A stretch of DNA of 64,000 bases. Source: Kineosporia sp. R_H_3 (GTDB lineage Bacteria; Actinomycetota; Actinomycetes; Actinomycetales; Kineosporiaceae). Location of the stretch: positions 1 to 64,000 of the forward strand of contig NZ_MWLL01000246.1 in assembly GCF_002198675.1 (NCBI RefSeq), written 5' to 3'. Shown piece by piece: positions 25,666 to 40,864 of this stretch. The notes below the pieces were generated by a model. The model was not told the DNA's origin and made no database searches. It saw nothing but the letters and a program-made list of their open reading frames with translations. The stretch's first letter is position 1. Every line of letters begins with the position of its first letter. Both the position numbers and the translations under genes were made by a program.

Positions 25666-27174
25666 CTAGCCGAACCGGACCCCTTCGTCGTCCACCCGCC
25701 CCCGCCGGAACATGACCCGGTCCCGGACGTAGTTCTGGTGCACCCGCCACGGCGCCCGGGGCCCCTGCTTGGGCAGCACGTCGAGGCCGCGGCGGACGTA
25801 CCCGGAGCGCAGGTCGAGCAGCGGCAGCCGCTCGTCGGTCGGTGGCGGCACCGGGACGACGCTGCGCAGCCCCTCGCGGTCCATGTGGGTGAGCAGGCGG
25901 CAGACGTACTCGGCGACGAGGTCGGCCTTGAGCGTCCACGAGGCGTTCGTGTAGCCGACGGTGAACGCGAGGTTCGGGACGCCGGTGAGCATCATCGCCT
26001 TGTACGCCACCGTCTGCGCGACGTCGACCGGCTCACCGTCCACGCTCAGCGCGATCCCCCCGACGGGCAGCAGGACGAGCCCGGTCGCGGTGACGACGAC
26101 GTCCGCGGGCAGCACCTGCCCGGACGACGTCCGCACCCCCTCCGGCACGAACGTGTCGACGGTGTCGGTGACGACCGAGGCGCGGCCCGACGCGACGGCA
26201 CGGAACAGGTCTCCGTCCGGCACGAAGCACAGCCGCTCGTCCCACGGGGCGTACCGGGGCGTGAAGTGGGTCGCGACGTCGTACCCCGCGGGCAGCTGGG
26301 CGCGCACCCCCTTGAGGAGCAACGACTTCATGAGCTCGGGACGGCGGCGGCTCACCGCGTACTGGAGCTGGGCGGCGAGGATGTTCTTCCACCGGATCGC
26401 CGGGTCGGCGGCCCGCTGCGGCAGCGCCCGGCGCAGCAGCCGCGCCGCCGGGTCGCGGCCCGGCAGCGAGAGCACCCACGTCGGCGAGCGCTGGAGCATC
26501 GTCACGTGCGCGGCGGTGCCGGCGAGCGCCGGCACGAGGGTCACGGCGGTCGCCCCGCTGCCGAGGACGACGACCCGCTTGCCGGTGCAGTCGAGGTCGG
26601 CGGGCCAGGCCTGCGGGTGGACGACGGTGCCGGCGAAGGACTCCACGCCCGGCAGGTCCGGGGTGTAGCCCGCCTCGTAGCTGTAGTAGCCCGAGCAGAT
26701 GTAGAGGAACGAGCAGGTGAGCACGGCCTCGCCGGCGGCGCGGCGCACCCGCACCGTCCAGCGCGCGTCGGCCCCCGACCAGGACGCCCCCACGACCCGG
26801 TGCCCGAACCGGACGAGCCGGTCGACGCCGTACGCGCGGGCGGTCTCCACGACGTACTCCCGGATCGAGTCACCGTCCGCGAGCGCCTTGTCGCCGCGCC
26901 ACGGCCGGAACGCGTAGCCGAGGGTGTGCATGTCGGAGTCCGAGCGGACGCCGGGGTAGCGGAAGAGGTCCCAGGTGCCGCCGATCGCGTCGCGGGCCTC
27001 GAGGACGGCGAGCGAACGGCCGGGGTGCGCCGTCCTCAGCCGACAGGCGGCGCCGACACCGGAGAGCCCGGCCCCGACGACGAGGACGTCGAGGTGCTCC
27101 GGCCGCCGGTCGGGCGGCCGGCTGTCGGGTCCTGCGGCTCCGTCGGCGTCGGATCCTGTTGCGGCGTCGGCCAT
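25666..27174 (-). CDS. Flavin-containing Baeyer-Villiger-type monooxygenase
   Basis: This 502-residue flavoenzyme has the FAD site VVGAGLSGVG (residues 32-41), the NADPH site VVVLGSGATAV, and the Baeyer-Villiger fingerprint FxGxxxHxxxW (F180, G182, H186, W190 in FAGTVVHPQAWP). It resembles EtaA-type monooxygenases that convert ketones to esters or oxidise sulfur compounds. The ATG at 27174 is 6 bases from a TAAGGT (27186-27181) that could be its own -10, inside the upstream EamA gene. The first 139 bases overlap the end of that gene in another frame. Confidence 0.92.
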   Translation of the reverse strand: MADAATGSDADGAAGPDSRPPDRRPEHLDVLVVGAGLSGVGAACRLRTAHPGRSLAVLEARDAIGGTWDLFRYPGVRSDSDMHTLGYAFRPWRGDKALADGDSIREYVVETARAYGVDRLVRFGHRVVGASWSGADARWTVRVRRAAGEAVLTCSFLYICSGYYSYEAGYTPDLPGVESFAGTVVHPQAWPADLDCTGKRVVVLGSGATAVTLVPALAGTAAHVTMLQRSPTWVLSLPGRDPAARLLRRALPQRAADPAIRWKNILAAQLQYAVSRRRPELMKSLLLKGVRAQLPAGYDVATHFTPRYAPWDERLCFVPDGDLFRAVASGRASVVTDTVDTFVPEGVRTSSGQVLPADVVVTATGLVLLPVGGIALSVDGEPVDVAQTVAYKAMMLTGVPNLAFTVGYTNASWTLKADLVAEYVCRLLTHMDREGLRSVVPVPPPTDERLPLLDLRSGYVRRGLDVLPKQGPRAPWRVHQNYVRDRVMFRRGRVDDEGVRFG

Positions 27175-28052
27175 TGCGCCACCTTACGTGCCGGCCGCGG
27201 CGACAGAGCAGCCCCGGCGCTCGCGACGCAGACCACGAGGATCGCGCCGACCTCGATCGGCGACAGGCGTTCGCCGAGCACGACGAGCCCGGCGGCCGCG
27301 GCACCGACCGGCTCCAGGCTCATGAGCACCCCGAAGGTCGCGGTCGGCAGCGCCCGCAACGCGGCCATCTCGAGCGCCGCGGGCAGCGCCGACGACAGGA
27401 CGCCGACGAGCGCCCCGACCGCGAGCACCCGCGGCTCGAGCAGCGCCGTGCCCGCGGTGACCAGCCCGGCGGGGAACGCGACGACCGCCGCGACCGTGAA
27501 CGCCACCGCCAGCCCCTGGAACCCGGGCAGCACCGCCCCGACCCGCTTGCTGACGACGATGTAGCCGGCCCAGCCGACCCCGGCGAGCAGCGCCAGGGCG
27601 GTGCCGACCGGGTCGAGGCTGCCGTCGAGGAGCGCGCGGCCGCCGCCGGTGAGCAGCACGACCCCGGCCCCGGCGAGCGCGGCCCACAGCAGGTCCGCCG
27701 GCCGCCGCGTCCCGACGACGGCGACCGCGAGCGGCCCGACGAACTCGAGCGTCACCGCGACCGCGAGCGGGATCCGCCCGATCGAGGCGTAGAACGTGAG
27801 GTTGAGCGCGAGCAGCACGAGCCCGAGCAGCGCGGCGAGGCCGAGCCGGCGGGCGTCGAGGTCGCGCCGGCGCGGCCGGACGACGGCGAGGCACACGAGC
27901 GCCGCGACGCCCACCCGGACGGCGACCGTCCCGGTCGTGCCGACCGCGCCGAACAACTGCTTGGCCAGGGCCGCGCCGACCTGCACGGACGCGACCGACG
28001 CGAGCACCGTGAGGACGGGGGCGCCGACGTGGGCGGGCGGGGAGGCGGGCAC
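27036..28052 (-). CDS. EamA/DMT family transporter
   Basis: This 338-residue protein has ten hydrophobic helices in two EamA repeats (first around VRVGVAALVCLAVVR to FVGPLAVAVVGT, second around LALLAGVGWAGYIVV to MSLEPVGAAAAGLVVLGE). Members export amino acids or metabolites. Start GTG 28052 follows GGGAGG by about 10 bases. The transmembrane part ends near SAGAALSPRPAR. A proline- and threonine-rich tail of about 45 residues then continues to 27036, overlapping the monooxygenase gene by 139 bases. Either the tail is translated or the overlap reflects a genuine coding arrangement; the substrate is unknown. Confidence 0.85.
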   Translation of the reverse strand: MPASPPAHVGAPVLTVLASVASVQVGAALAKQLFGAVGTTGTVAVRVGVAALVCLAVVRPRRRDLDARRLGLAALLGLVLLALNLTFYASIGRIPLAVAVTLEFVGPLAVAVVGTRRPADLLWAALAGAGVVLLTGGGRALLDGSLDPVGTALALLAGVGWAGYIVVSKRVGAVLPGFQGLAVAFTVAAVVAFPAGLVTAGTALLEPRVLAVGALVGVLSSALPAALEMAALRALPTATFGVLMSLEPVGAAAAGLVVLGERLSPIEVGAILVVCVASAGAALSPRPARKVAQWPTPQQDPTPTEPQDPTAGRPTGGRSTSTSSSSGPGSPVSAPPVG

Positions 28053-28090
28053 GGGGAGCAGCCTCCCACCGGCCCGCACGGCGGGACGGG

Positions 28091-29089
28091 CTACCCGACG
28101 AGCCCGTCGACGTCCGGGGCCTTCTTCAGGGTGCCGTAGCGCCGCGCGGCCGTGCCGACGGCCAGCAGGGACTCCCGGTCGAGGCCGACGGGCCAGTCCG
28201 GGAGGTTGACGGAGACGGCGACCTCGCGCGGGATCTTCGTGTACGTCGTGACGATCTCGCGGACCTGGACCTGGTGGTCGCGGGCGTAGGCGAGGGAGTC
28301 GTTGAGCGCGGAGACGAAGCGGTCGAGGATGATCGGCTGCTTCTCGCGGAACGACGCCGTCGTGAAGTACGCGGCGATCTGCACCTTGGAGTAGGTCTCG
28401 GTGAGGTTGTTGAAGAGGATGCGGCCGCCGCCGGCCACGACCGAGCTGACGAACGGCTCGCTGAGCCAGGCGGCGTCGACGGTCCCGGCCTTGACCGCGG
28501 CGGGCATCTCGGGGAACGGCATGGGCACGAACGTGACCTTCGAGGGGTCGCCGCCGGCCTTCTCGACGGCGGCGCTGACCGTCGTGTCGCCGATGTTGTT
28601 CAGGGCGTTGACCGCGACCTTGCGACCCTCGAGGTCCTTGGCCGAGCGCAGCGTCGACCCCTTGCCGACGACGACGCCGTTGACGTCCTTCACCGGGTCG
28701 CCCGTCGAGCTGACGCCGGCCGCGACGGCGATCACTTCCGCACCCTTCTCCCGGGCCGCGAGGAGGGACACGACGTTGCTGAACCCGATGTCCACCTTGC
28801 CGCCGAGGACCTTCTCCGCGATCTCGCCGCCGGTCTGCGCGATGACCGGCTCGACCTCGAGACCGCGCTGGGCGAAGTAGCCCTTCTGGATCCCGAGGTA
28901 GATCGGCGCGACGTCGATGATCGGGATGATCCCGACCGAGATCTTCGTCATCGGCAGGCCGCTCGACGCGCCGGCGCCGATGGTGAGGCCGGGGTCCGGC
29001 TCGGCGCACGCCGTGAGCAGCCCGGCGAGCAGGGCCAGCACGGCACCGGCACCCGGCAGGGCGCGCAGGCGACGGGACGGTCGAGGCAT
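28091..29089 (-). CDS. ABC transporter substrate-binding lipoprotein (NitT/TauT-type), copy 1
   Basis: This 332-residue protein has a lipoprotein signal (LAGLLTAC lipobox, Cys near residue 28) and the NMT1/SsuA-like periplasmic-binding fold: ISVGIIPIIDVAPIYLGIQK, IGFSNVVSLLAAREKG, VAVNALNNIGDTT and VTFVPMPFPEMPAAVKAG. It should bind a small organic or anionic solute for import. A close paralogue lies at 32587-33597 next to the permease and ATPase genes, whereas no other transport genes adjoin this copy. The promoter is divergent from the PaaX gene, which is a likely regulator. The ATG at 29089 gives the signal peptide. Confidence 0.9.
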   Translation of the reverse strand: MPRPSRRLRALPGAGAVLALLAGLLTACAEPDPGLTIGAGASSGLPMTKISVGIIPIIDVAPIYLGIQKGYFAQRGLEVEPVIAQTGGEIAEKVLGGKVDIGFSNVVSLLAAREKGAEVIAVAAGVSSTGDPVKDVNGVVVGKGSTLRSAKDLEGRKVAVNALNNIGDTTVSAAVEKAGGDPSKVTFVPMPFPEMPAAVKAGTVDAAWLSEPFVSSVVAGGGRILFNNLTETYSKVQIAAYFTTASFREKQPIILDRFVSALNDSLAYARDHQVQVREIVTTYTKIPREVAVSVNLPDWPVGLDRESLLAVGTAARRYGTLKKAPDVDGLVG

Positions 29090-29122
29090 GGCGGGCCTCC
29101 AGCAGGAGCGGGCGATCAAGCG

Positions 29123-29161
29123 AACGTAGGGCGGCCATAGGGGCTCGTCAACGCGAATGCC
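29123..29161 (-). promoter_or_regulatory. Promoter of binding-protein gene copy 1
   Basis: On the minus strand TTGACG (29151-29146) and TACGTT (29128-29123) are 17 bases apart. A GGCATT element (29161-29156) lies 4 bases upstream of the -35; the same GGCATT sits 3 bases upstream of the TTGACG of copy 2. Confidence 0.6.
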
Positions 29162-29222
29162 CAGGTCAGGGCCGAGTGAGTGGCAATCACCCCGCCAATC
29201 TCACGCAGTGCTTCGGCTCGCC

Positions 29223-29228
29223 TACGAT
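29223..29228 (+). promoter_or_regulatory. -10 element of the second PaaX gene
   Basis: TACGAT ends 7 bases before GTG 29236 with no Shine-Dalgarno, supporting a leaderless start there. No good -35 is visible. Confidence 0.45.
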
Positions 29229-29235
29229 CAGCATC

Positions 29236-30114
29236 GTGTCGACGCCCGTCGGGCAGGTCCCGACCCGTGACCCGGTCGTCGGGTCCGTCGGCGCCGCGAC
29301 CCCGGTCCGGCCCCAGATCGTCCTCTACACCGTCTTCGGGGACCACCTCGTCGACGTCGGTCTCGCCGTCGCGACGAGCAGCCTCCTCGACGTCGCGCGG
29401 CGGGTCGGGATCGGCGAGCACGCGATGCGGACGACGCTGGCCCGCCTGACCGCCCGGGGCACGTTGACCCGGCTGCGACGCGGCCGCCAGGCCTACATCG
29501 GGCTCAGCGAGGAGGGCCGGCGGACCGTCCTCGACGGGCGGGCCCGGGCGCACGCGGACGTCGTCACGACGGACTGGGACGGGGCGTGGACGCTCGTCGC
29601 CTTCTCGCTGCCGGACAGCCAGCGCCGCCGGCGCTACGACCTGCGGGTCCGTCTGGAGTGGGCCGGTTTCGGGGTCGCCCAGGGCGGGCTGTGGGTATGC
29701 CCCCGCGACGTCGACGTCGCGGCGGTCCTCGGCGAGGTGGACCCCGAAGGGCTCGACCTCCACGACCGGGTGCGCGCCTTCCGCGCGACGACCCTCTCGC
29801 CGACCCGGGTCTCCCGGATGGTCGCCGAGGCCTACCCGCTGGAGGCGCTCGCCGCCGGCTACACCGCCTTCGAGCAGCGCTGGGCGGGCACCCTGGACGA
29901 CCCCGGGCCGGTGGACCCGTTGGCCCGCCGGGCGCTGCTCGCGGCCGACTGGTCACGCGTCGTGCGGCGCGACCCGCGGCTGCCCGTGGAGCTGCTGCCG
30001 GCCGACTGGCCGGCCGCCCGGGCGCAGACCCTGTTCCGCGACCTCGTCGGCTGGCTCGCCGAGCCGTCGCGGCGGCAGGCGGAGCTCGACCTGGACACCG
30101 TGCCGCAGCAGTGA
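29236..30114 (+). CDS. PaaX family transcriptional regulator
   Basis: This 292-residue PaaX-type regulator has an HTH region (GIGEHAMRTTLARLTARGTL and LRRGRQAYIGLSEEG), a central domain DWDGAWTLVAFSLPDSQRRR with LRVRLEWAGFGVAQGGLWV, and the C-terminal LLPADWPAARAQTLFRDLV, also found in the other PaaX at 16063. PaaX proteins respond to acyl-CoA intermediates of aromatic acid catabolism. Its gene sits between the two binding-protein genes of the ABC transporter and is divergent from the first. Control of the transporter by an imported or metabolised ligand is a reasonable inference. Confidence 0.88.
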   Translation: MSTPVGQVPTRDPVVGSVGAATPVRPQIVLYTVFGDHLVDVGLAVATSSLLDVARRVGIGEHAMRTTLARLTARGTLTRLRRGRQAYIGLSEEGRRTVLDGRARAHADVVTTDWDGAWTLVAFSLPDSQRRRRYDLRVRLEWAGFGVAQGGLWVCPRDVDVAAVLGEVDPEGLDLHDRVRAFRATTLSPTRVSRMVAEAYPLEALAAGYTAFEQRWAGTLDDPGPVDPLARRALLAADWSRVVRRDPRLPVELLPADWPAARAQTLFRDLVGWLAEPSRRQAELDLDTVPQQ

Positions 30115-30152
30115 CCCGCAGCGGTGAGCCGCGGCAGTGAGCAACCCGTGGG

Positions 30153-30950
30153 TCAGCCGCCCGAGCGGTGCGCCGAGCGGATGCCCTCGTACCAGCGCAG
30201 CACCCGGGCCTCGACGGCCCGGAAGACCCAGGCGAGGGTGACGCCGAGCAGCCCGAGCACGATGATGCCGGTCCACATCTGCGGGACGGCGAAGGTCCGC
30301 TGGAACTGCACGACCGTGAACCCGATCCCGTTGCTCGCCGCGAACATCTCGCTGATGACCATGAGGATGATCCCGACCGACAGCGCCTGCCGCAGGCCCG
30401 TCATGATCTGCGGGCTGGCGGACCGCAGGACGAGGGAGCGGACCCGGCCGGGGCCGCGGATGCCGTAGCTGCGGCACGTGTCGGCCAGGACGGGGTCGAC
30501 CGCGCGGACCCCCTCGACGGTGTTGAGCAGGATCGGCCAGAGGCAGCCGAACACGATGACGAGCACCTTCATCAGGTCGTCGATCCCGGCGACGGCGACG
30601 AGCAGCGGCACGGTCGCCGGCGGCGGGACGGCCCGGAACACCTCGAGCACCGGTTCGACGAGCGCCCGCAGCGTGGGCGACGACCCGATGAGCAGCCCGG
30701 CGCCGACGCCGACGACGGCGGCCAGCCCGTACCCCGTGAGCAGCCGGGCCAGGCTCGGCAGCACGTCGGAGACGATGCGGGCGTCGGCGCCGCCCGCGAA
30801 CCACGTCTCGGGCAGGACGGCCACCACCTCGCGCAGCGGCGGGAAGTAGAAGCTCTCGCTCCCGTCGCTGGTGACCCACCAGGCCGCGAGGAGGACGACG
30901 GGCAGCGCGACGACCTCCGCCGCCCGGCGCAGCCGCGCACCGACGCTCAC
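30153..30950 (-). CDS. ABC transporter permease (NitT/TauT-type)
   Basis: This 265-residue inner-membrane permease has about six helices and the EAA loop region around ADTCRSYGIRGPGRVRSLVL, the motif that contacts the ATPase. Helices flank RLLTGYGLAAVVGVGAGLLI and MTGLRQALSVGIILMVISEM. It forms the transmembrane channel together with the homologous permease encoded just upstream, whose stop overlaps its GTG start (GTGA at 30947-30950). It is the last gene of the transporter operon, convergent with the PaaX gene. Confidence 0.93.
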   Translation of the reverse strand: MSVGARLRRAAEVVALPVVLLAAWWVTSDGSESFYFPPLREVVAVLPETWFAGGADARIVSDVLPSLARLLTGYGLAAVVGVGAGLLIGSSPTLRALVEPVLEVFRAVPPPATVPLLVAVAGIDDLMKVLVIVFGCLWPILLNTVEGVRAVDPVLADTCRSYGIRGPGRVRSLVLRSASPQIMTGLRQALSVGIILMVISEMFAASNGIGFTVVQFQRTFAVPQMWTGIIVLGLLGVTLAWVFRAVEARVLRWYEGIRSAHRSGG

Positions 30951-31744
30951 GGCGCCACCTCCCCGCGGACCGAGACGTGCCAGCGCAGCAGGCGGCGTTC
31001 GAGCGCCCGGACACCGACGTTGACGACGAGCCCGAGCAGCCCCGTCACCAGGACGAGGCCGTAGACGAGCGCCGTGGCGCCACCGCTCTGCGCCGCGGCG
31101 ATCTCCCGGCCGAGGCCGGGGCTGCCGATGACGAGCTCGGCGGTGATCGCGAGGATGAGGGCGACCGCCGCGGCGAGCCGGACGCCGGTCGCGACGTACG
31201 GCTGCGCGGTCGGCCACAGCACGTGACGGACCCGCGCCCAGCGGCCCAGCCCGTAGGACCGCGCCGTCTGCTCGGCCACCGGGTCGACGTCCGCGACGCC
31301 GTACATCGTCTGCACGAGCACCTGCCAGAACGACGCGTAGACGATGAGCAGGAGCGCCGAGCGCAGCTGGGTGCCGAGCACGAGCACGGCGAGCGGGACG
31401 AGGGCCACGGAGGGGATCGGCCGCAGGAACTCCACGGTCGAGGCCGTGAGCCGGCGCAGCCAGGGCACCGAGCCGAGCACGACCCCGACGGCGACGCCGA
31501 GGACGACCGCGATCGCGAGCCCGAGCCCCCACTGGACCGTGGTCGCGGCGAGCGCCGCCCGGAACTGCGGTGTCGGCACCTCGGCGGCGAGCGCGCCGAG
31601 GATGACCGACAACGGCGGCAGCACGTCGTCGGGGACGCCGAGCACGCGCGGCAGGACCTCCGCGGCGAGGGCGGTCAGGCCCAGGCCGGTCGCCCCCAGC
31701 ACGACGGTGCGCGGGACCGGCGGCCCGGCCGGCCGGGCGCTCAT
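30947..31744 (-). CDS. ABC transporter permease (NitT/TauT-type)
   Basis: This 265-residue permease has the EAA region AEQTARSYGLGRWARVRHVL and helices around VQWGLGLAIAVVLGVAVGVV, RPIPSVALVPLAVLVLG and LAAAVALILAITAELVI. It probably pairs with the downstream permease as a heterodimeric channel. Its ATG overlaps the stop of the ATPase gene (ATGA at 31741-31744) and its own stop overlaps the next GTG, so the three genes are tightly coupled. Confidence 0.93.
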   Translation of the reverse strand: MSARPAGPPVPRTVVLGATGLGLTALAAEVLPRVLGVPDDVLPPLSVILGALAAEVPTPQFRAALAATTVQWGLGLAIAVVLGVAVGVVLGSVPWLRRLTASTVEFLRPIPSVALVPLAVLVLGTQLRSALLLIVYASFWQVLVQTMYGVADVDPVAEQTARSYGLGRWARVRHVLWPTAQPYVATGVRLAAAVALILAITAELVIGSPGLGREIAAAQSGGATALVYGLVLVTGLLGLVVNVGVRALERRLLRWHVSVRGEVAP

Positions 31745-32529
31745 GCGCCGTCCGGACGGCCCGCGGCCCGCTGCGCGGCCCGGATCTCGCCGTACACCCT
31801 GGTGCGCAGCTCGGTGAAGCGCGGCATGGCCCGGGTGTCGAGCTGGTCGCGCTCGCGCGGCAGGTCGACCGGCAGGTCGTCCTGGACCACGGTCGGCGAC
31901 GAGGAGAGGACGACGACGCGCTCGCCGAGGTAGACGGCCTCGTCGATGTCGTGGGTGACGAACAGGGTCGTCACCCCGGTGCGGTCCCAGAGGGTCCGGA
32001 TGAGGTCCTCGAGGTCGGCACGGGTCTGAGCGTCGACGGCCGCGAACGGCTCGTCCATGAGCATGACGTGCGGTTCGTAGGCGAGCGCACGGGCGATGGC
32101 CACGCGCTGCTGCATCCCGCCGGACAGCTGCCAGGGGTAGGCGTCCGGGGTGTGCGCCAGCCCGACGGCCGCGAGCGACTCCGCGACGAGCCGGCGCCGC
32201 TCGGCCCGGCCGCGCCCCTTGTGCCGCAACGGCAGCTCGACGTTCTGGGCGACGGTCATCCAGGGGAACAGCGAGCGGCCGTACTCCTGGAACACCACGG
32301 CCATGCCGGGGGGCGGCCCGCTCACGGGCCGCCCCTCGACACGGACCTCGCCGCCCGTCGGGCCGAGCAGGCCCGCCAGGCACTTCAGCAGCGTCGTCTT
32401 GCCGCACCCGGAGGGGCCGACCAGGCACACCAGCTCACCGGCCGCCACCGAGAAGGTGATGTCGCGCAACGCCTCCACGGTCCGGTCCCGTGACGTGTAG
32501 ACCTTGCGCAACCCACGGACCTCGAGCAT
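31741..32529 (-). CDS. ABC transporter ATP-binding protein (NitT/TauT-type)
   Basis: This 262-residue ATPase has Walker A GPSGCGKTT, the Q-loop around VVFQEYGRSLFPW, the signature LSGGMQQR, Walker B ALAYEPHVMLMDEP and the H-loop FVTHDIDEA. It resembles the SsuB/TauB group, which energises import of sulfonates, taurine, nitrate or thiamine precursors. It is the second gene of the operon, 57 bases downstream of the binding-protein gene. Confidence 0.95.
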   Translation of the reverse strand: MLEVRGLRKVYTSRDRTVEALRDITFSVAAGELVCLVGPSGCGKTTLLKCLAGLLGPTGGEVRVEGRPVSGPPPGMAVVFQEYGRSLFPWMTVAQNVELPLRHKGRGRAERRRLVAESLAAVGLAHTPDAYPWQLSGGMQQRVAIARALAYEPHVMLMDEPFAAVDAQTRADLEDLIRTLWDRTGVTTLFVTHDIDEAVYLGERVVVLSSSPTVVQDDLPVDLPRERDQLDTRAMPRFTELRTRVYGEIRAAQRAAGRPDGA

Positions 32530-32586
32530 CTGCTCCCTCTCCTGGCGGACGGACGACGGACCGGTGCGGCCTGGGCGGCCCGCCGG

Positions 32587-33597
32587 TCAGGCGCCGGCGA
32601 ACAGCCCCGCGACGTCCGGCGCCTTCGTCAGCGTGCCGAACGAGCGGGCCGCCTCGCCGACGGCGGTCGCCGACTGGGCGTCGAGCTCGGCCGGCCATGC
32701 GGGCAGGACCACCTTGGCCGCGACCTCCGGCGGGATCTTCGTGTACGTCGCCAGGACGGCGCGGGCCTCGTCCGGGTTCGCGACCGCGTACGCCAGGGAC
32801 TCCTCCATGCCCTCGACGAACGCCGTCACCGTCGCCGGGTCCTCGGCCTTGAGCTTCTCGCTCGTGAAGTACGTGGCGATCTGGAGCTTCGGGTAGGTCT
32901 CGGTGAGGTTGTCGAAGAGGATCGAGCCGCCGGCCGCGAGGATCTGGCTGCGGAACGGCTCGCTCTCCCAGGCCGCGTCGACCTTCCCGGCGGCGAGCTG
33001 CGCGGGCATGTCCGGGAACGGCATCTCGACGAAGGTGACCTTCGACGGGTCGCCGCCGGCCTTCTTCACGGCGGTCTTGATCGTCGTGTCGCCGATGTTG
33101 TTCAGGGCGTTGATGGCCACCTTCTTGCCCTCGAGGTCCTTCGCCGTCTTCAGCGGCGACCCCTTGGCGACGAGGACGGCGTTGACGTCCTTCGCGGGGT
33201 CACCGGTCGAGCTGGCCCCGCCGACGACGGCGACGAGCGGCACGCCCTTCTCCCGTGCGGTGAGCAGCGAGACGACGTTGCTGAAGCCGAACTGGTTCTC
33301 CCCGGCGAGGACGGCGGGCACGATCGCGGACCCGCCCTGCGCGGGCGCCGGCGTGATCTCGAGGCCGCGCGAGGAGAAGAACCCCTTCTGGATGCCCAGG
33401 TAGAGCGGCGCGACGTCGATGATCGGGATCACGCCGACGGTGATCTTCTTCGTCCCGGCGGCGGAGGACGCCGATCCCGGGGCCCCGGTCCCGGTGGCCG
33501 GGTCGGACGCGGAGCCGCCGCAGGCGGCGAGGACGGTGGCGAGGACGGCGGCCGCGAGGGCTGCGGCGCCCCGACGACCGATGGTGGGCGAGTGCAT
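32587..33597 (-). CDS. ABC transporter substrate-binding lipoprotein (NitT/TauT-type), copy 2
   Basis: This 336-residue paralogue of the protein at 28091-29089 has an LATVLAAC lipobox and shares long identical segments such as IPIIDVAP, GFSNVVSLL, ASSTGDPAKDVN, ALNNIGDTT and AGGDPSKVTFVEMPFP. It heads the operon with the ATPase and both permeases, so it is the primary binding protein of that importer. The ligand is unknown. The ATG at 33597 follows the Shine-Dalgarno CCAGGAGGAG. Its promoter is listed separately. Confidence 0.92.
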   Translation of the reverse strand: MHSPTIGRRGAAALAAAVLATVLAACGGSASDPATGTGAPGSASSAAGTKKITVGVIPIIDVAPLYLGIQKGFFSSRGLEITPAPAQGGSAIVPAVLAGENQFGFSNVVSLLTAREKGVPLVAVVGGASSTGDPAKDVNAVLVAKGSPLKTAKDLEGKKVAINALNNIGDTTIKTAVKKAGGDPSKVTFVEMPFPDMPAQLAAGKVDAAWESEPFRSQILAAGGSILFDNLTETYPKLQIATYFTSEKLKAEDPATVTAFVEGMEESLAYAVANPDEARAVLATYTKIPPEVAAKVVLPAWPAELDAQSATAVGEAARSFGTLTKAPDVAGLFAGA

Positions 33598-33889: not shown

Positions 33890-35806
33890 GTGGCCGAGAT
33901 GACCCAGGGGCTGGGCGGGGGCGCGCCAGCCGGTGAACCGGTCGACCGCGCGTTCCGCGTCGACCTGCGCGGCGTCGTCGACCTCCTGAGCCACCACCTC
34001 TACTCGAGCCCGCAGGTGTACCTCCGCGAGCTCGTCCAGAACGCGGTCGACGCCGTGACCGCCCGCCGCGGCGCCGAGCCGTCCGCGCCCGGGCAGGTCC
34101 TCCTCGTCCCCTCGGACGTCGCCGCCGACGGCCGGCTGCACTGCGTCGACACCGGCTGCGGCCTGTCCCCGGACGACGTCGAGCGGTTCCTCGCGACGAT
34201 CGGGTCGTCGTCCAAGCGGGACGAGCTCGGCCTGGCGCGTGCGGACCTGCTCGGCCAGTTCGGCATCGGCCTGCTCTCGTGCTTCCTCGTCGCGGACGGG
34301 ATCGAGCTCGTGACGACGCCCGCCGGCGGCGGCCCGACGACCCGCTGGGTCGGCCGCAGCGACGGCGGCTACACGGTGACCGTGCTCGACGCGGCCGCAG
34401 CGGCCCGGGAGCGGGCGGCCCTCGCCGACCTCGTCGCGGCCGCCGGCGCCCCGGACCTGCCGACCGGCGCCGGGACCTGGGTGCGGCTGCTGCCGCGCCG
34501 GGACGCCCGGGACACCACGTCCGCGGGCGAGGTCGAGCGGCTGGCCCGACGCTTCGCCCAGATGCTCCCGGTCGAGGTGTCGGTCGCCCGCGCCGGCGGG
34601 CGCACCGAGCGGGTCACCCGGGACGTCCGGCCCTGGGACGGCGACGCCCGCTCCGCGGCGCAGATGCGCGACGAGGCCGCCGACCTGCTCGGGGTGCCCG
34701 TGCTCGCCGTGCTGCCCGTGACCGTACGGACCGCCGGCCTGCGCGGCGTCGTGGCGGTCCTCGGGCGGCCGACAGCGCCGTCGTCCCGGCAGGCGCACCA
34801 CGTGTACGCCAAGGGGATGCTCGTCGGCACGGGCGTCGAAGGGCTGCTGCCCGGATGGGCGTTCTTCGCGCGCGCCCTCGTCGACACGGACGGCCTGCGG
34901 CTCACGGCGTCCCGGGAGTCGCTGTACGACGACGACCTGCTCGCCGAGGTCCGGGAGGCGCTCGGCGAGCACCTGCGCCGCTGGCTGCTGCGCACCGCCG
35001 ACGTCGCGCCGCAGCGGTTCGGCGAGGTGCTCGCCCTCCACGAACCGGGGATGCGGGCGCTGGCCGTCCACGACGACGACCTCTACCGGGCCTACGCACC
35101 TCTCATGACCGTCGAGACGTCCGTGGGCACGACGACGCTCGGCGACGCCCTGCGGCGCTTCGACGTCGTCCGCTGGACCGCGACGACCGACGAGTTCCGC
35201 CAGGTGCTGCCCGTCGCGAGCGCGCAGGGCCTCGGGGTCGTCAACGCCGGGTACTCGTTCCAGGCTGAGCTCATGGAGCGGCTGCCCCTGCTCGACCCGG
35301 ACGTGCGGGCCGTGCAGGTCGTGCCCGGGGACCTCGACGCCCACGTCGACCTGCTCGACGACGACGTCCTCGCCGGCTACGCGAGGTTCCTCGAGGTCGC
35401 CCGGGAGACGCTCGGCCGCCTCGACGTCGACGTCGAGGTCCGCTCGTTCACCCCGGCGAGCCTGCCCGCGCTCGTCCTCGACGACCGCGAGAGCGCGCAC
35501 CGGCGCAGCGCCCGGGCCGCCGCGGACGACGCGGACGACGCGTGGGCCGGGCTGCTCGCCGCCCTCGACGACGGCGGCCGCAGCGAGATCAGGCTGCTGC
35601 TCAACCACGCGCACCCCGTGGTCCGCCGGCTCACGACGCCGATGCCCGCGCGGGTGCTCGCGCTCACGGCCGAGGCCCTGTGGTGCCAGGCCCTCCTGCT
35701 CGGCCAGCGCCCCCTGCGCCCGGCGGACCAGGCCGTCATGAACCGCTCCTTCGTCGGGCTCCTCGAGCTCGCGACGGGCACCGCCGAGGAGGGCGACCAG
35801 CTGTGA
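33890..35806 (+). CDS. HSP90-family ATPase (HtpG-like)
   Basis: This protein of about 638 residues has the GHKL ATPase of HSP90: LYSSPQVYLRELVQNAVDAV (N box), VDTGCGLSPDDVERFLATIG with GSSSKRDE (G1 region), and LLGQFGIGLLSCFLVADGIE (G2 region). The middle domain has GMLVGTGVEGLLPGWAFFAR and LRLTASRESLYDDD, corresponding to the HtpG catalytic-loop area. There is no MEEVD tail. GTG 33890 is 6 bases from CATGAT, a possible -10; ATG 33899 is the alternative. Its stop overlaps the start of a 998-residue repeat protein (GTGA at 35803-35806), so the two probably act together. Clients are unknown. Confidence 0.9.
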   Translation: MAEMTQGLGGGAPAGEPVDRAFRVDLRGVVDLLSHHLYSSPQVYLRELVQNAVDAVTARRGAEPSAPGQVLLVPSDVAADGRLHCVDTGCGLSPDDVERFLATIGSSSKRDELGLARADLLGQFGIGLLSCFLVADGIELVTTPAGGGPTTRWVGRSDGGYTVTVLDAAAAARERAALADLVAAAGAPDLPTGAGTWVRLLPRRDARDTTSAGEVERLARRFAQMLPVEVSVARAGGRTERVTRDVRPWDGDARSAAQMRDEAADLLGVPVLAVLPVTVRTAGLRGVVAVLGRPTAPSSRQAHHVYAKGMLVGTGVEGLLPGWAFFARALVDTDGLRLTASRESLYDDDLLAEVREALGEHLRRWLLRTADVAPQRFGEVLALHEPGMRALAVHDDDLYRAYAPLMTVETSVGTTTLGDALRRFDVVRWTATTDEFRQVLPVASAQGLGVVNAGYSFQAELMERLPLLDPDVRAVQVVPGDLDAHVDLLDDDVLAGYARFLEVARETLGRLDVDVEVRSFTPASLPALVLDDRESAHRRSARAAADDADDAWAGLLAALDDGGRSEIRLLLNHAHPVVRRLTTPMPARVLALTAEALWCQALLLGQRPLRPADQAVMNRSFVGLLELATGTAEEGDQL

Positions 35807-38799
35807 CGACGACCGATCTCGCGGACCGCATCGAGGCCTGCGACGAGATGCCGTACGGCCGGGAGCGGACGCTGCTCGCCGAGCGGCTCGTCGCCGAGGC
35901 CGACGCGGCCGGCGACGTCGCCCTCGGCGTCGGCGCCCGGCACGTCCTCATCCCCTCGTACTTCTACGGTCCGGCCGCGGAGCCGCAGAAGATCTTCGCG
36001 GCCTTCGCGTGGAACCTGGCCCGCTGGGACGAGGACCCCGAGGCGTTCGAGGCCGTCGACCGGCACTCGCTCCTCTGGTACTTCAAGTGGGTCACCGGCG
36101 AGGTGCTCAACTACCCGCAGGTGCCGTTCGCGCAGGCGGAGGCGACGCTCGCCGACATGCGGGACCGCTACGAGCGCGCCGGCGAGGGCCTGGCCCCGTA
36201 CGAGGGTTCGCGGTACGTCCAGGCGTCGCACCGCTACGGCGAGGCGGACCCGCGCACGGCCGAGGCCTTCGAGGCCTGGGTCACCCTGCCCCGGACCGGC
36301 CTGTCGGACTGCCGGGCCTGCGAGCCCTCGACCCGGGTCGAGCGGCTCGCGGCCCTGGGGCGGCACGAGGACGCCGTCGCGGCCGCGGGCCCGGTGCTCG
36401 CCGACGGCGGCTGCGCGGAACAGCCGCAGCGGATGATCGACGCCGTCCTCGGCTCGCTCCTGGCCTGCGGCGACGTCGTGCGGGCCGCGCAGGAGCACGC
36501 CCGCGCGACGCGGCTGCACCGCCGCAACGGCCCGCAGGCCGACCTCGCCGCCCAGGTCCACGCGTGCGCCCTCGTCGGCCGCTACGGCCGCGGCCTCGAC
36601 CTGCTCGAGGACGTCCTGCACCAGGTGGAGACCTCGACGGTCCCGTGGTCGCGGATGATGCTCGCCGCGGCCGGGGCCCGGCTGCTCGACGGGCTCGTGA
36701 CGGCCGGCCACGCCGACGAGCCGGTCGCCGCCGCCCGGCCCGGCAGCAGGTTCTCGACGCCGCGCCCCGCGGCCGAGGTGCGCACGGACCTGCGGGAGAC
36801 CGCGCTCGGCCTCGCCGGCGCCTTCGACGACCGCAACGGGACGACGGCCGTCTCGCAACGGGTCACCGCCCGCCTCACGGCCGCCGACCTCCCGGACGTG
36901 CCGGCCTGGCCCCGCACCCGCCGGCCGCGGCTGGACCGCGGTGCGGCGGCCCCGGCCACCAGCGCAGAAGACGGCTCCGGCGCCGCGGCCGCCGGCGCGC
37001 TGCCGCCCGCGCAAGGGCTCGACGACCTGCTGCGGCTGCGTGACGAGGTGTCCGCCACCGGTGCCGCCGACGGCTGGGACCGCCTCGTCGCCGGCTGGTC
37101 CGCGCTGCGGCCCCGGGTCGTCGCCGAGGCCTCCGACCTGCTCGTCGCGCGCGCCGTGGACGTCGCACGGCTCGACGTGGCCGCCGTCCGGCACGAGCTG
37201 ACCGCCGTCCCCGACGGCGGACGGCCCGACCCCGCGCTGCGCGCCCGGCTCGTCACGGTGGGGGCGGCGCTGCGCAGCGCCGGCCAGGAGGCGGAAGGGC
37301 TTCTCGTCGCCCTGCAGGCGCACGGGATCGAGGCGATCGCCCGCGCCGACGCCGGGCCCGGATCCGTGGAGGCCGACCTCACCGAGGCCACCCGGCTCGC
37401 CGACGCCGTCGCGGCGGCGGGGGACGCCGCCGCCGCGGCCCAGGCGACCGCGGAGCTGGCGCTGCTCGCCGTCCGCCTCGGCCAGACGGTCGCCGACCCC
37501 GCGGTGGCCCGCTCCGCCCACGACGGCGGGCTGCGCGCCGCGGCCGCCGCCGCCGAGGCCTTCGCCGTCCTCGACCCCGCGGGCCTCGACGGGGCGCAGC
37601 GCGGCCGGTACGCGCTCGCTCTGCTCGTGACGACGCAGCGGGCCGGGCACGAGGACGCGCTCACCCTGCTCGAACGGGCGCTCGCCGTCCTACCCGCCGG
37701 CACCCGCGCCTACGAGCGCGCCGTCGTCCTCGACGCCACGGCGTTCCGGCTCGCGGCCCTCGACCGCGTCGAGGAGGCCGCCGACGCGCTCGACGCGGCC
37801 GCCACGGACGCCCGCACGAGCGGCAACACCGCGCTCGCGGCGTCCTGCGCGGCCCGGGCCGGCGGGCTCCTGCTCGACCTCGACCGCCCCGGTGAGGCCG
37901 CGGAGCGGCTCGAGCGCGCACTCGCCGCCCTGCCGCCCACGGCCACCGCCTGGGGCGTGCACGCCGACCTCGTCGTCGCCCTCGGCCGGGCCGGTCGGAC
38001 GCTCGACGCCGCGGACCTCGCGGACACCGTCGAGCGGCTCGTCGGCGAGCGGCCGCCGACGGGTGACGACCCGCAGGAGGCGTTCGACGCCGGCCGGGCC
38101 GCCTTCGTCGGCGCCCTCGCCCTGCGCACCCTCGACGAGGGCGCCGCGGCCGCCCGGCTCGCGACGACGAGCGCCGCCCTGCATGCCCTGCACCCGCAGT
38201 CGCTCGCCCGGGCCGAGGCGCTCGACCTCGCGGCGGGCTGCACGGAGGACGTCCCGGAACGGGTCCGGCTGCTCGCCGAGGCCGTCGAGGTGGCCGCCGG
38301 CGCGGACGACCGCTGGTTCGCGGCCGACCTGCGGCGCCGCCACGCGGACGCCGTCGACGACGCGGACGGCCCCGACGCCGCGCTCGCGCTGCTCGCCGGG
38401 CTGCGCGCCGACGTCACCGCCGCCGACGTGCCCGCCGAGGAGGAGGCCGCCCGCACCTGGCACCTCGCCGCGATCGGCCACCTGGAGACCGCGGTGCTCC
38501 TGCGCGCCGACCGGGCGGACGCCGCGCTCGCGGCCCTCGCCGGGGTCGCGCAGGCCTACGGCGACGTCGGCGACGACGACAACGCGGTGCGGGTGACGTG
38601 CCTGCACGTGCAGGCGCTGCACCAGGGCGGTCGGACGGACGCCGCCGAGGCGCTCGGTCGCGCGGTCGCCGACCAGGCGCTCGCCCAGGGCCGCAGCGGG
38701 CACGCCCGGGCGGTCGGCGGCACGGTGGCCCGGGTCCTCGACGAGTCCGGCGACCCGGAGGCCGCCGACGAGGTCTGGTCGCGCTACAGCGGGGAGTGA
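35803..38799 (+). CDS. Large helical-repeat (TPR-like) protein partnered with HSP90-family ATPase
   Basis: This 998-residue protein has no signal peptide, membrane segment or catalytic motif I can find. It is strongly Ala/Leu/Arg/Asp-rich with many helix pairs, such as AAQEHARATRLHRRNG, ALTLLERALAVLPAGTRAYE, ALDAAATDARTSGNTALAAS and RLERALAALPPTATAWG, resembling degenerate tetratricopeptide repeats. A linker near residues 375-405 divides an N-terminal part (about 1-370) from a C-terminal array. Because its GTG start overlaps the HSP90-family stop, a chaperone-partner or scaffold role is a reasonable inference; the eukaryotic TPR/HSP90 link is only an analogy. Confidence 0.85.
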   Translation: MTTTDLADRIEACDEMPYGRERTLLAERLVAEADAAGDVALGVGARHVLIPSYFYGPAAEPQKIFAAFAWNLARWDEDPEAFEAVDRHSLLWYFKWVTGEVLNYPQVPFAQAEATLADMRDRYERAGEGLAPYEGSRYVQASHRYGEADPRTAEAFEAWVTLPRTGLSDCRACEPSTRVERLAALGRHEDAVAAAGPVLADGGCAEQPQRMIDAVLGSLLACGDVVRAAQEHARATRLHRRNGPQADLAAQVHACALVGRYGRGLDLLEDVLHQVETSTVPWSRMMLAAAGARLLDGLVTAGHADEPVAAARPGSRFSTPRPAAEVRTDLRETALGLAGAFDDRNGTTAVSQRVTARLTAADLPDVPAWPRTRRPRLDRGAAAPATSAEDGSGAAAAGALPPAQGLDDLLRLRDEVSATGAADGWDRLVAGWSALRPRVVAEASDLLVARAVDVARLDVAAVRHELTAVPDGGRPDPALRARLVTVGAALRSAGQEAEGLLVALQAHGIEAIARADAGPGSVEADLTEATRLADAVAAAGDAAAAAQATAELALLAVRLGQTVADPAVARSAHDGGLRAAAAAAEAFAVLDPAGLDGAQRGRYALALLVTTQRAGHEDALTLLERALAVLPAGTRAYERAVVLDATAFRLAALDRVEEAADALDAAATDARTSGNTALAASCAARAGGLLLDLDRPGEAAERLERALAALPPTATAWGVHADLVVALGRAGRTLDAADLADTVERLVGERPPTGDDPQEAFDAGRAAFVGALALRTLDEGAAAARLATTSAALHALHPQSLARAEALDLAAGCTEDVPERVRLLAEAVEVAAGADDRWFAADLRRRHADAVDDADGPDAALALLAGLRADVTAADVPAEEEAARTWHLAAIGHLETAVLLRADRADAALAALAGVAQAYGDVGDDDNAVRVTCLHVQALHQGGRTDAAEALGRAVADQALAQGRSGHARAVGGTVARVLDESGDPEAADEVWSRYSGE

Positions 38800-39841: not shown

Positions 39842-40864
39842 GTGCCATCTGCCGAGACCCGCGAGGGCGTGTCGCTGAGCAACCTCGACACCCCGCTCTT
39901 CGACGGCGCGGACGCGACCAAGCGCGACCTCGTCGACTACCTCGACGCCATGAGCGACCGGATCCTGCCGGTGCTCGCCGGGCGGGCGCTGTCCGTCGTG
40001 CGGGTGCTGCGCGGCCAGGACCCGTTCATGCAGAAGAACGTCCCGAAGTACGCGCCCGACTGGCTGCCGACGGTGCCGGCCTGGGCGCAGTCGTCGCAGC
40101 GGCAGGTCCGCTACCCGGTCTGCGACGACCGCAGGACGCTGATGTGGCTGGCGAACCAGCGCGCCGTCGAGTACCACCCGCAGCTGTTCCGCGGCGACGC
40201 CTGGGACGCCCCGACGTCGCTCGTGCTCGACCTCGACCCGCCGGAGCCGGACGGCGCGGACGGCGCCGCGTCGTCCGCCGGCTCCGGTGCCGTCCTGCAC
40301 GCGTTCCGGACGGCGGCCCGTGCCGCGTTGCTCGTGCGCGAGGTGCTCGACGCGGCGGGGATGGCGTCGGCCGTGAAGACGAGCGGCGCCAAGGGCGTGC
40401 ACGTCGTCGTCCCGCTCGACGGCACGGCGCACGGCGAGGACGTCATGGCCGCGACCCGGGCCGTCGCCGCCCGCGCCGAACGCCTCGACCCGGCGCTCGC
40501 GACGACCGCGTACATCAAGGCCGACCGCGGCGGGAAGGTCTTCCTCGACGCGACCCGGTCCGGCGGCGCGACCGTCGTCGCGACGTGGAGCCCGCGCGTG
40601 CGGCCCGGCACGACGGTGTCGTTCCCGCTGCCCTGGGCCGACCTGCTCGACGCCGACCCGCGCGACGCGACCGTCCGCACGGTGCCCGGTCTGCTCGCCG
40701 CGGCCGGCCCGGACGCCGACCCCTGGCGCGACCTGCTCCCCGCCCCGCAGACCCTCGACCCGGGCCTCGTCGAGGAGGGCCGGACGATCCCGGTCGCCCG
40801 GGTCGCGGCGATGCACGAGGGCAAGCGCCGTGCGAAGGCCCGGCGCGAGGCCGGGGACGCCTGA
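39842..40864 (+). CDS. LigD-type polymerase/primase (PrimPol) domain protein
   Basis: This 340-residue protein matches the polymerase domain of LigD from non-homologous end joining. The region after TKRDLVDYLDAMSDRILPVL leads to the catalytic LVLDLDPPEP (two metal-binding Asp), SGAKGVHVVVPL, and YIKADRGGKVFLDAT. It has no ligase or nuclease domain, so it is a stand-alone PrimPol, a kind also known in mycobacteria (PolD1/PolD2). It would extend or prime DNA ends during repair. No Ku gene is visible here. GTG 39842 is chosen; ATG 39824 and GTG 39872 are alternatives. Confidence 0.9.
   Translation: MPSAETREGVSLSNLDTPLFDGADATKRDLVDYLDAMSDRILPVLAGRALSVVRVLRGQDPFMQKNVPKYAPDWLPTVPAWAQSSQRQVRYPVCDDRRTLMWLANQRAVEYHPQLFRGDAWDAPTSLVLDLDPPEPDGADGAASSAGSGAVLHAFRTAARAALLVREVLDAAGMASAVKTSGAKGVHVVVPLDGTAHGEDVMAATRAVAARAERLDPALATTAYIKADRGGKVFLDATRSGGATVVATWSPRVRPGTTVSFPLPWADLLDADPRDATVRTVPGLLAAAGPDADPWRDLLPAPQTLDPGLVEEGRTIPVARVAAMHEGKRRAKARREAGDA

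Follow-up and report, generated by a model that had tools for sequence, protein, structure and literature searches.

The window analysed here is a stretch of 64,000 nucleotides from Kineosporia sp. R_H_3. It contains a gene for an HSP90-family ATPase whose last four bases are also the first four of a gene for a 998-residue, TPR-like protein, and the locus raises the question of what an HSP90 and such a neighbor might do together. Bacterial Hsp90 has, to our knowledge, been described as operating without co-chaperones. An earlier note, made from the sequence of this locus, proposed either an independently evolved chaperone/scaffold pair or a stress or conflict system. The analysis presented below indicates that the pair probably consists of a bacterial HSP90 and a TPR protein dedicated to it as co-chaperone or client adaptor, independently of an MEEVD tail; together they would form a two-protein chaperone machine. 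The features of the locus are as follows.

33890..35806, + strand: HSP90 family protein (P0001) of the NF010683 type, 638 aa, GTG start; assigned by NCBIfam score
33953..34609, + strand: N-terminal GHKL ATPase domain, approximately residues 22-240; from the alignment to TRAP1 and the catalytic residues
34652..35389, + strand: middle domain, approximately residues 255-500, R342 lying within a TASRE motif; from the AlphaFold2 model and VIA-align
35402..35791, + strand: predicted C-terminal dimerisation-type domain, approximately residues 505-634, no MEEVD; from the VIA-align ranges
35803..35806, + strand: 4-nt stop/start overlap GTGA, joining the HSP90 end and the partner start
35803..38799, + strand: TPR-like partner (P0002), 998 aa, GTG start; from the AlphaFold2 model, TPR_12 in relatives, and Foldseek
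35803..36876, + strand: N-domain of the partner, residues 1-358, constant across the family; from alignment conservation
36310..36321, + strand: C170-x2-C173 of the partner, both Cys present in 70/70 alignment rows
36412..36414, + strand: C204 of the partner, present in 70/70 rows
37018..38787, + strand: variable C-terminal TPR-like solenoid, residues 406-995; from the model helices and lower conservation

The HSP90 protein

The window HSP90 scored 637.1 bits against the NCBIfam model NF010683 (cut-off 455), with residues 18-634 aligned to positions 4-601 of the 604-position profile. It is thus, by curated score, a member of the bacterial "HSP90 family protein" (NF010683/PRK14083), a model described without reference to any partner gene or specific function. 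Against the canonical HtpG model, NF003555, it scored 114.5 bits, below the cut-off of 371. A search of the 7.26-Mb genome from which the window comes found P0001 as the sole match of its type, and a scan of the same genome for canonical HtpG found none above the cut-off; P0001 is the only HSP90 found in this genome.

AlphaFold2 models of the HSP90 and its partner were built from 26-row alignments of the window proteins and related loci. The HSP90 model (pLDDT 88) was matched by VIA-align to full-length TRAP1, HtpG, Grp94, and Hsp90, with Z-scores of 24.9-31.1 among the 50 matches listed, and the full-length matches extended from model residues 6-28 to residues 626-637. Because the model aligns nearly end to end with full-length Hsp90s, a C-terminal dimerisation-type domain is taken to be present, and the protein, as modeled, has all three domains (N, middle, and C) that make up the Hsp90 fold. 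The Bergerat fold motifs, which the earlier note had recognized, were all located (E47, N51, D87, G89, and GQFGIG at residues 122-127), as was R342 of the middle domain, and in the alignment E47, N51, D87, G122, G125, G127, and R342 are kept in 29/29 paired HSP90s. Canonical HtpG has the same three-domain fold and the same catalytic Glu, Asp, and Arg, but in the six paired rows listed, the motif around the middle-domain Arg reads TASRE or VASRE, versus NVSRE in the two HtpG rows listed. Among 25 actinobacterial and firmicute members, the alignment column that we take to be equivalent to yeast Gln384 holds Tyr in 17; it holds Gln in all four proteobacterial members and all ten HtpGs. The reported lack of the MEEVD tail was also borne out: the window protein ends in AEEGDQL, and an EVD ending was found in 0/80 HSP90 tails (the window and 79 relatives). 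A link to the geldanamycin-insensitive HtpG of S. hygroscopicus, through its reported residues G88 and L92, was considered and found no support, as both residues occur in 0/80 family members at the positions that we presume to be equivalent in yeast numbering.

The partner protein

The partner model (pLDDT 89) is helical almost throughout, with a low-confidence linker at residues 381-402 that separates the N-domain from the solenoid. Among 26 diverse partner rows, the mean frequency of the top residue, taken per 50 residues, was 0.46-0.61 over the first 350 residues, versus 0.23-0.44 beyond. Seven residues, C170, C173, C204, K95, D342, R344, and N345, are invariant in a 70-row alignment from which L051, L106, L118, and partners cut by contig ends were left out. 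Foldseek returned low whole-length TM-scores for the 50 matches listed, which we take to be helical-repeat proteins or complexes, with TPR solenoids such as IFT-A, SKI3, OGT, and LGN prominent among them. The Pfam TPR_12 model matched 17 of the 26 members of the partner alignment at E <= 0.01. P0002 itself gave no TPR match in Pfam, the only match being a sub-threshold one to SNAP, which weighs against the co-chaperone reading. NCBIfam likewise assigned P0002 to no family. On the basis of the model helices, the Foldseek matches, and TPR_12 in relatives, the partner is predicted to contain a TPR solenoid of tandem helix pairs. The earlier note had described a giant degenerate TPR array; the TPR-like helical solenoid stands, but the protein as a whole really comprises a conserved N-domain of ~350 aa plus a variable solenoid. 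No model specific to the partner family was found in Pfam, NCBIfam, or PADLOC, and Pfam and NCBIfam searches with its homologues gave nothing to name it by beyond TPR and scattered weak matches. One of the 26 homologues carried a Usp match, the position of which was not located by a crude regex search.

Gene order in Actinobacteria

The 4-base overlap with the 998-residue partner, as first noticed, is real: positions 35803-35806 are common to both genes. Of 77 homologous loci scored (L051, L107, and L118 were left out of this count), 58 have a start codon that allows a 4-nt overlap and 12 have one that allows a 1-nt overlap. Relatives of the pair were sought by a contig scan, and the best 80 of 352 confirmed relatives, all actinobacterial by title, were used. 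Tblastn with P0002 placed a partner downstream in 79 of these 80 loci, the match in L051 being the second of two tandem copies. By an N-domain HMM, the partner was the next same-strand gene in 73 of the 80, including L051 and also L107, which tblastn had missed; in the remaining seven, the partner is truncated by the contig end and was detected by tblastn. Since 73 loci are accounted for by the HMM and seven by tblastn, the partner lies directly downstream in 80/80 of these loci (the best 80 of 352). In two actinobacteria (L051 and L073) and in Listeria (L169), a single HSP90 gene is followed by tandem copies of the partner.

A sample of 296 genomes of the class contained 41 pair-type HSP90 copies above 400 bits, in 36 genomes, and the N-domain was encoded directly downstream of 40 of the 41; HSP90 rows below 400 bits (canonical HtpG and other GHKL proteins) had been removed before this count. 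The same sample held 44 N-domain copies in 38 genomes, four of them without an adjacent HSP90. Canonical HtpG was above its cut-off in 52 of the 296 genomes and, from a comparison of the two lists, occurs together with the pair-type HSP90 in nine of the 36. The recurrence of this gene order is far beyond chance. Conservation of the neighborhood in Actinobacteria, which the earlier note had put forward as a check, is thus seen in both samples, and neither of the outcomes that it had named as fatal, an unconserved pair or a repeat protein of an unrelated known family, was found.

Comparison with canonical HtpG

Loci of canonical HtpG served as a control; 18 were taken and 15 used, with L190, L192, and L193 left out as their HtpG was not recognized by the motif rule. 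The gene next to HtpG was 56-952 nt away, never overlapping, and on the same strand in nine cases, and an overlapping TPR gene or a partner of this kind was found in 0/15 loci. Pfam TPR was matched in the next gene at one locus, a separate TIR-AAA-TPR gene 64 nt on. Seven annotated HtpG regions likewise had no such partner next to HtpG, the neighbors being adk (twice), BrkB, DUF664, or a gene on the opposite strand (three); L183 and L184, which lack annotation, were not counted. In a tree of 40 HSP90s, a branch with 100/100 support separated 29 paired HSP90s from ten canonical HtpGs, and the Pseudanabaena HSP90 grouped on the paired side. This tree was rooted at its midpoint, and its long branches make finer placing unsure.

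The most ordinary explanation is that the window holds a plain HtpG with a hitch-hiking neighbor gene. The catalytic residues and the domains of Hsp90 are there, as such an explanation would have it, but the protein falls below the HtpG cut-off and is separate on the tree, and its pairing (40/41, compared with 0/15 for canonical HtpG) contradicts a chance neighbor. With the cut-off, the pairing count, the tree, and the HtpG-locus control all against it, this explanation was rejected as highly improbable.

Pairs in other phyla

Full-length relatives beyond Actinobacteria come from searches of plasmid, phage, and E. coli records, and it is only through these collections that other phyla were sampled. 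In Listeria, two TPR-like genes in tandem, of 324 and 320 aa, lie behind an HSP90 (799 bits); they correspond to N-domains alone (178 and 183 bits). In Paenibacillus, the HSP90 gene overlaps by 4 nt the gene for a 353-aa, N-domain-only protein (204 bits). When 16 proteins were searched, the N-domain matches of these partners had E-values of 6e-57 to 2e-63.

A more distant arrangement was found in P. aeruginosa, X. vasicola, Salmonella Infantis, and E. coli, in which an HSP90-like ATPase gene has a gene for a TPR-like protein of 764-774 aa directly downstream. The proteobacterial HSP90s scored 277-293 bits, below the NF010683 cut-off, in the two tested. The partners gave TPR matches that exceeded the Pfam gathering score in E. 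coli only, and the N-domain HMM did not match them significantly (E 0.0045-0.83); both results weigh against the co-chaperone reading. Nor was hhalign significant, with probabilities of 11% and 0.5% for the N-domain against the proteobacterial partner and 3.5% for the whole partner. The non-significant 11% alignment still places both C-x2-C pairs in register, and C144 and C147, invariant in 4/4 proteobacterial partners, form a C-x2-C at a like place to that of the N-domain. In E. coli, the second HSP90-like ATPase gene is patchy (245 of 5426 genomes), and among the matches listed the copies are all chromosomal and share 79-80% DNA identity with the Salmonella copy. The E. coli partner, examined in one genome, lies between fdhD and yiiG, and the Salmonella and E. 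coli pairs are near fdhD in both regions read.

These pairs bear on whether the TPR protein is a helper of the HSP90 or its substrate. P0002 could equally be a client of HSP90, in which case the HSP90 would be a private foldase for one large repeat scaffold or sensor that does the work. The near one-to-one pairing, the overlapping genes, and the large variable solenoid fit this description, and HSP90 identity and partner N-domain identity rise together (r 0.985, a correlation confounded by species phylogeny). However, the Listeria and Paenibacillus partners, at 320-353 aa, are small to need a private HSP90, and in Proteobacteria and the actinobacterial genome G330 (see below) the slot is filled by TPR-like proteins that are not significantly similar to this partner, a pattern more easily explained by an adaptor than by a single client. 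We consider the client explanation unlikely.

Unpaired N-domains and genomic context

Several loci depart from the one-to-one pattern. Five N-domain proteins, four in the class sample and one in Actinomyces, have no adjacent HSP90, which counts against the co-chaperone reading. One of them, in G278 (L156 8532-10609), follows a YbjN gene and has a C-terminal YbjN domain of its own (E 1e-16); a copy in G377:C4 (L158 8469-10519) has a like YbjN arrangement by eye, and the Actinomyces oris copy (L174 4160-8877) has a YbjN gene nearby, as tested by HMM. None of these three lies beside an HSP90, and the DCxxC motif is missing from the proteins of L156 and L158. YbjN, as we understand it, resembles a secretion-chaperone fold, and its association with N-domains counts in favor of the co-chaperone reading. 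A 945-aa N-domain protein of G476 (L159 9418-13630) is followed by cyclic-nucleotide-binding-like and adenylate-cyclase-like genes, named by eye. In G330 (L160 8734-11369), the HSP90 gene overlaps a 297-aa TPR gene in which no N-domain was detectable, and in the Pseudanabaena plasmid L170 another gene lies between the HSP90 and the TPR gene downstream of it; both arrangements weigh against the co-chaperone reading. The L160 region contains R-M-, Fic-, and PIN-like genes, by eye. The Pseudanabaena HSP90 (L170 5932-8565) carries a C-terminal extension with a weak match to CAP12-PCTIR TIR (E 0.001, below the gathering score), and has a TIR-domain gene and a DEAD helicase gene as neighbors.

Genes around the pair were clustered in the best 80 of 352 loci, from seven genes before to eight after, and the 45 largest clusters were examined. 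A recG-like gene adjoins the pair in 37 of the 80 loci, and a TetR and a biotin-carboxylase-type gene adjoin it in 11, ten of them of Micromonospora or Actinoplanes type (names by eye). The pair has recurrent chromosomal sites in Streptomyces-type and Micromonosporaceae-type loci. Apart from lineage-wide synteny, no third gene among these clusters keeps the same position from genus to genus, and generic ABC-transporter- and dehydrogenase-like clusters are scattered around the pair.

A stress-triggered conflict or signaling system, in which the TPR protein would sense an invader or damage and the HSP90 would act as the switch, is improbable. It would be in keeping with the sub-threshold TIR match and the TIR and DEAD neighbors of the Pseudanabaena HSP90, with the R-M- and Fic-like genes near L160, and with the patchiness of the gene in E. 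coli. The chromosomal sites described above, including that near fdhD in Salmonella and E. coli, and the lack of a third fixed gene argue against it. PADLOC did not assign the two proteins to one system: P0002 had no match, and P0001 matched in the ATPase-domain region only, with residues 24-142 aligned to small parts of the TmtA and REase_II profiles. The conflict system that the earlier note had allowed for is thus not supported, the neighbors of L160 and L170 notwithstanding.

Upstream in the window itself, the region 27036-33597, divergent from the HSP90 operon, contains an ABC permease/ATPase set with two similar NMT1-type binding proteins around it, at 28091-29089 and 32587-33597 (names by eye). 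A stand-alone LigD-type polymerase/primase-like domain was seen by eye at 39869-40864.

Relation to known systems

The proteobacterial pair presumably includes PA1068-PA1069, since we equate L171 with this P. aeruginosa locus on the basis of gene order and PMC4053335. It has the same order, an HSP90-like gene and then a TPR-like gene, but its HSP90 (293 bits) is below the NF010683 cut-off and its partner is not significantly similar to the P0002 N-domain. PA1069 was reported to be apparently operonic with Hsp90, and its level is lower in efhP mutants (PMC4053335). At 46 C, PA1069 goes down (log2 -1.98) and htpG goes up (2.83) (PMC4957987). A heat response was seen only for this distant partner and is down, not up, which weighs against the co-chaperone reading. 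PA1069 was also listed in a BatR co-IP (PMC13411936).

The HSP90 is already known as a named family, and in the parts of Chen et al. 2006 consulted, HTPG had been split into three groups, A-C, with S. coelicolor having two HTPG genes of different groups, of which HTPG2 is 615 aa (PMC1525184). We infer that HTPG2 belongs to the paired HSP90 family. The same parts of that paper mention no partner gene for the HTPG groups (PMC1525184). Among the matches listed from the open-licence PMC literature, as seen in excerpt, none was found to treat the HSP90-TPR operon as a single system.

Proposed mechanism and implications

The best-supported reading remains the chaperone/scaffold pair first suggested for this locus, in the form of a bacterial HSP90 and a co-chaperone or client adaptor dedicated to it; it draws on the strict coupling in Actinobacteria, the homologous pairs in Firmicutes, and the TPR-like partner, not significantly similar to P0002, in Proteobacteria. 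The first gene would encode an HSP90 that works as an ATP-driven dimer and belongs to a lineage separate from canonical HtpG, and the second a protein that would bind it physically. The combination of a constant N-domain and a variable solenoid suggests that the N-domain of ~350 aa docks on the HSP90, by a route other than an MEEVD tail, and that the solenoid collects clients or scaffolds the complex. The three invariant cysteines of the N-domain may form a metal or thiol site, and translational coupling through the overlap would hold both proteins in ratio. The same slot is occupied by TPR-like partners that are not significantly similar to one another, which suggests that this lineage of HSP90 requires a TPR adaptor. 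All of these assignments are read from genomes.

The pair may be compared with eukaryotic Hsp90 and its TPR co-chaperones (Hop/Sti1, Cpr6, and FKBP51), in which an Hsp90 is likewise teamed with a TPR protein. Unlike these, the bacterial pair has no MEEVD tail, its partner has a conserved Cys-containing N-domain and is encoded in the same operon, and its solenoid is, we believe, longer than those of the eukaryotic co-chaperones. Similarly, P0001 is set apart from canonical HtpG by having its own TPR-like partner gene.

In this operon, an entire lineage of HSP90s is linked with a TPR-like partner, and it offers a direct, testable co-chaperone candidate. The operon is common in Streptomyces, the genus that produces geldanamycin. 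A bolder reading, to which we give roughly one chance in three, is that the pair represents an ancient second bacterial HSP90 system, with a TPR co-chaperone of its own that was drawn on two or more occasions from unrelated TPR proteins, regulation through a Cys-rich docking domain, a place apart from the heat-shock response, and a client set of its own. If that were true, the teamwork of Hsp90 with TPR proteins would not be a eukaryotic invention.
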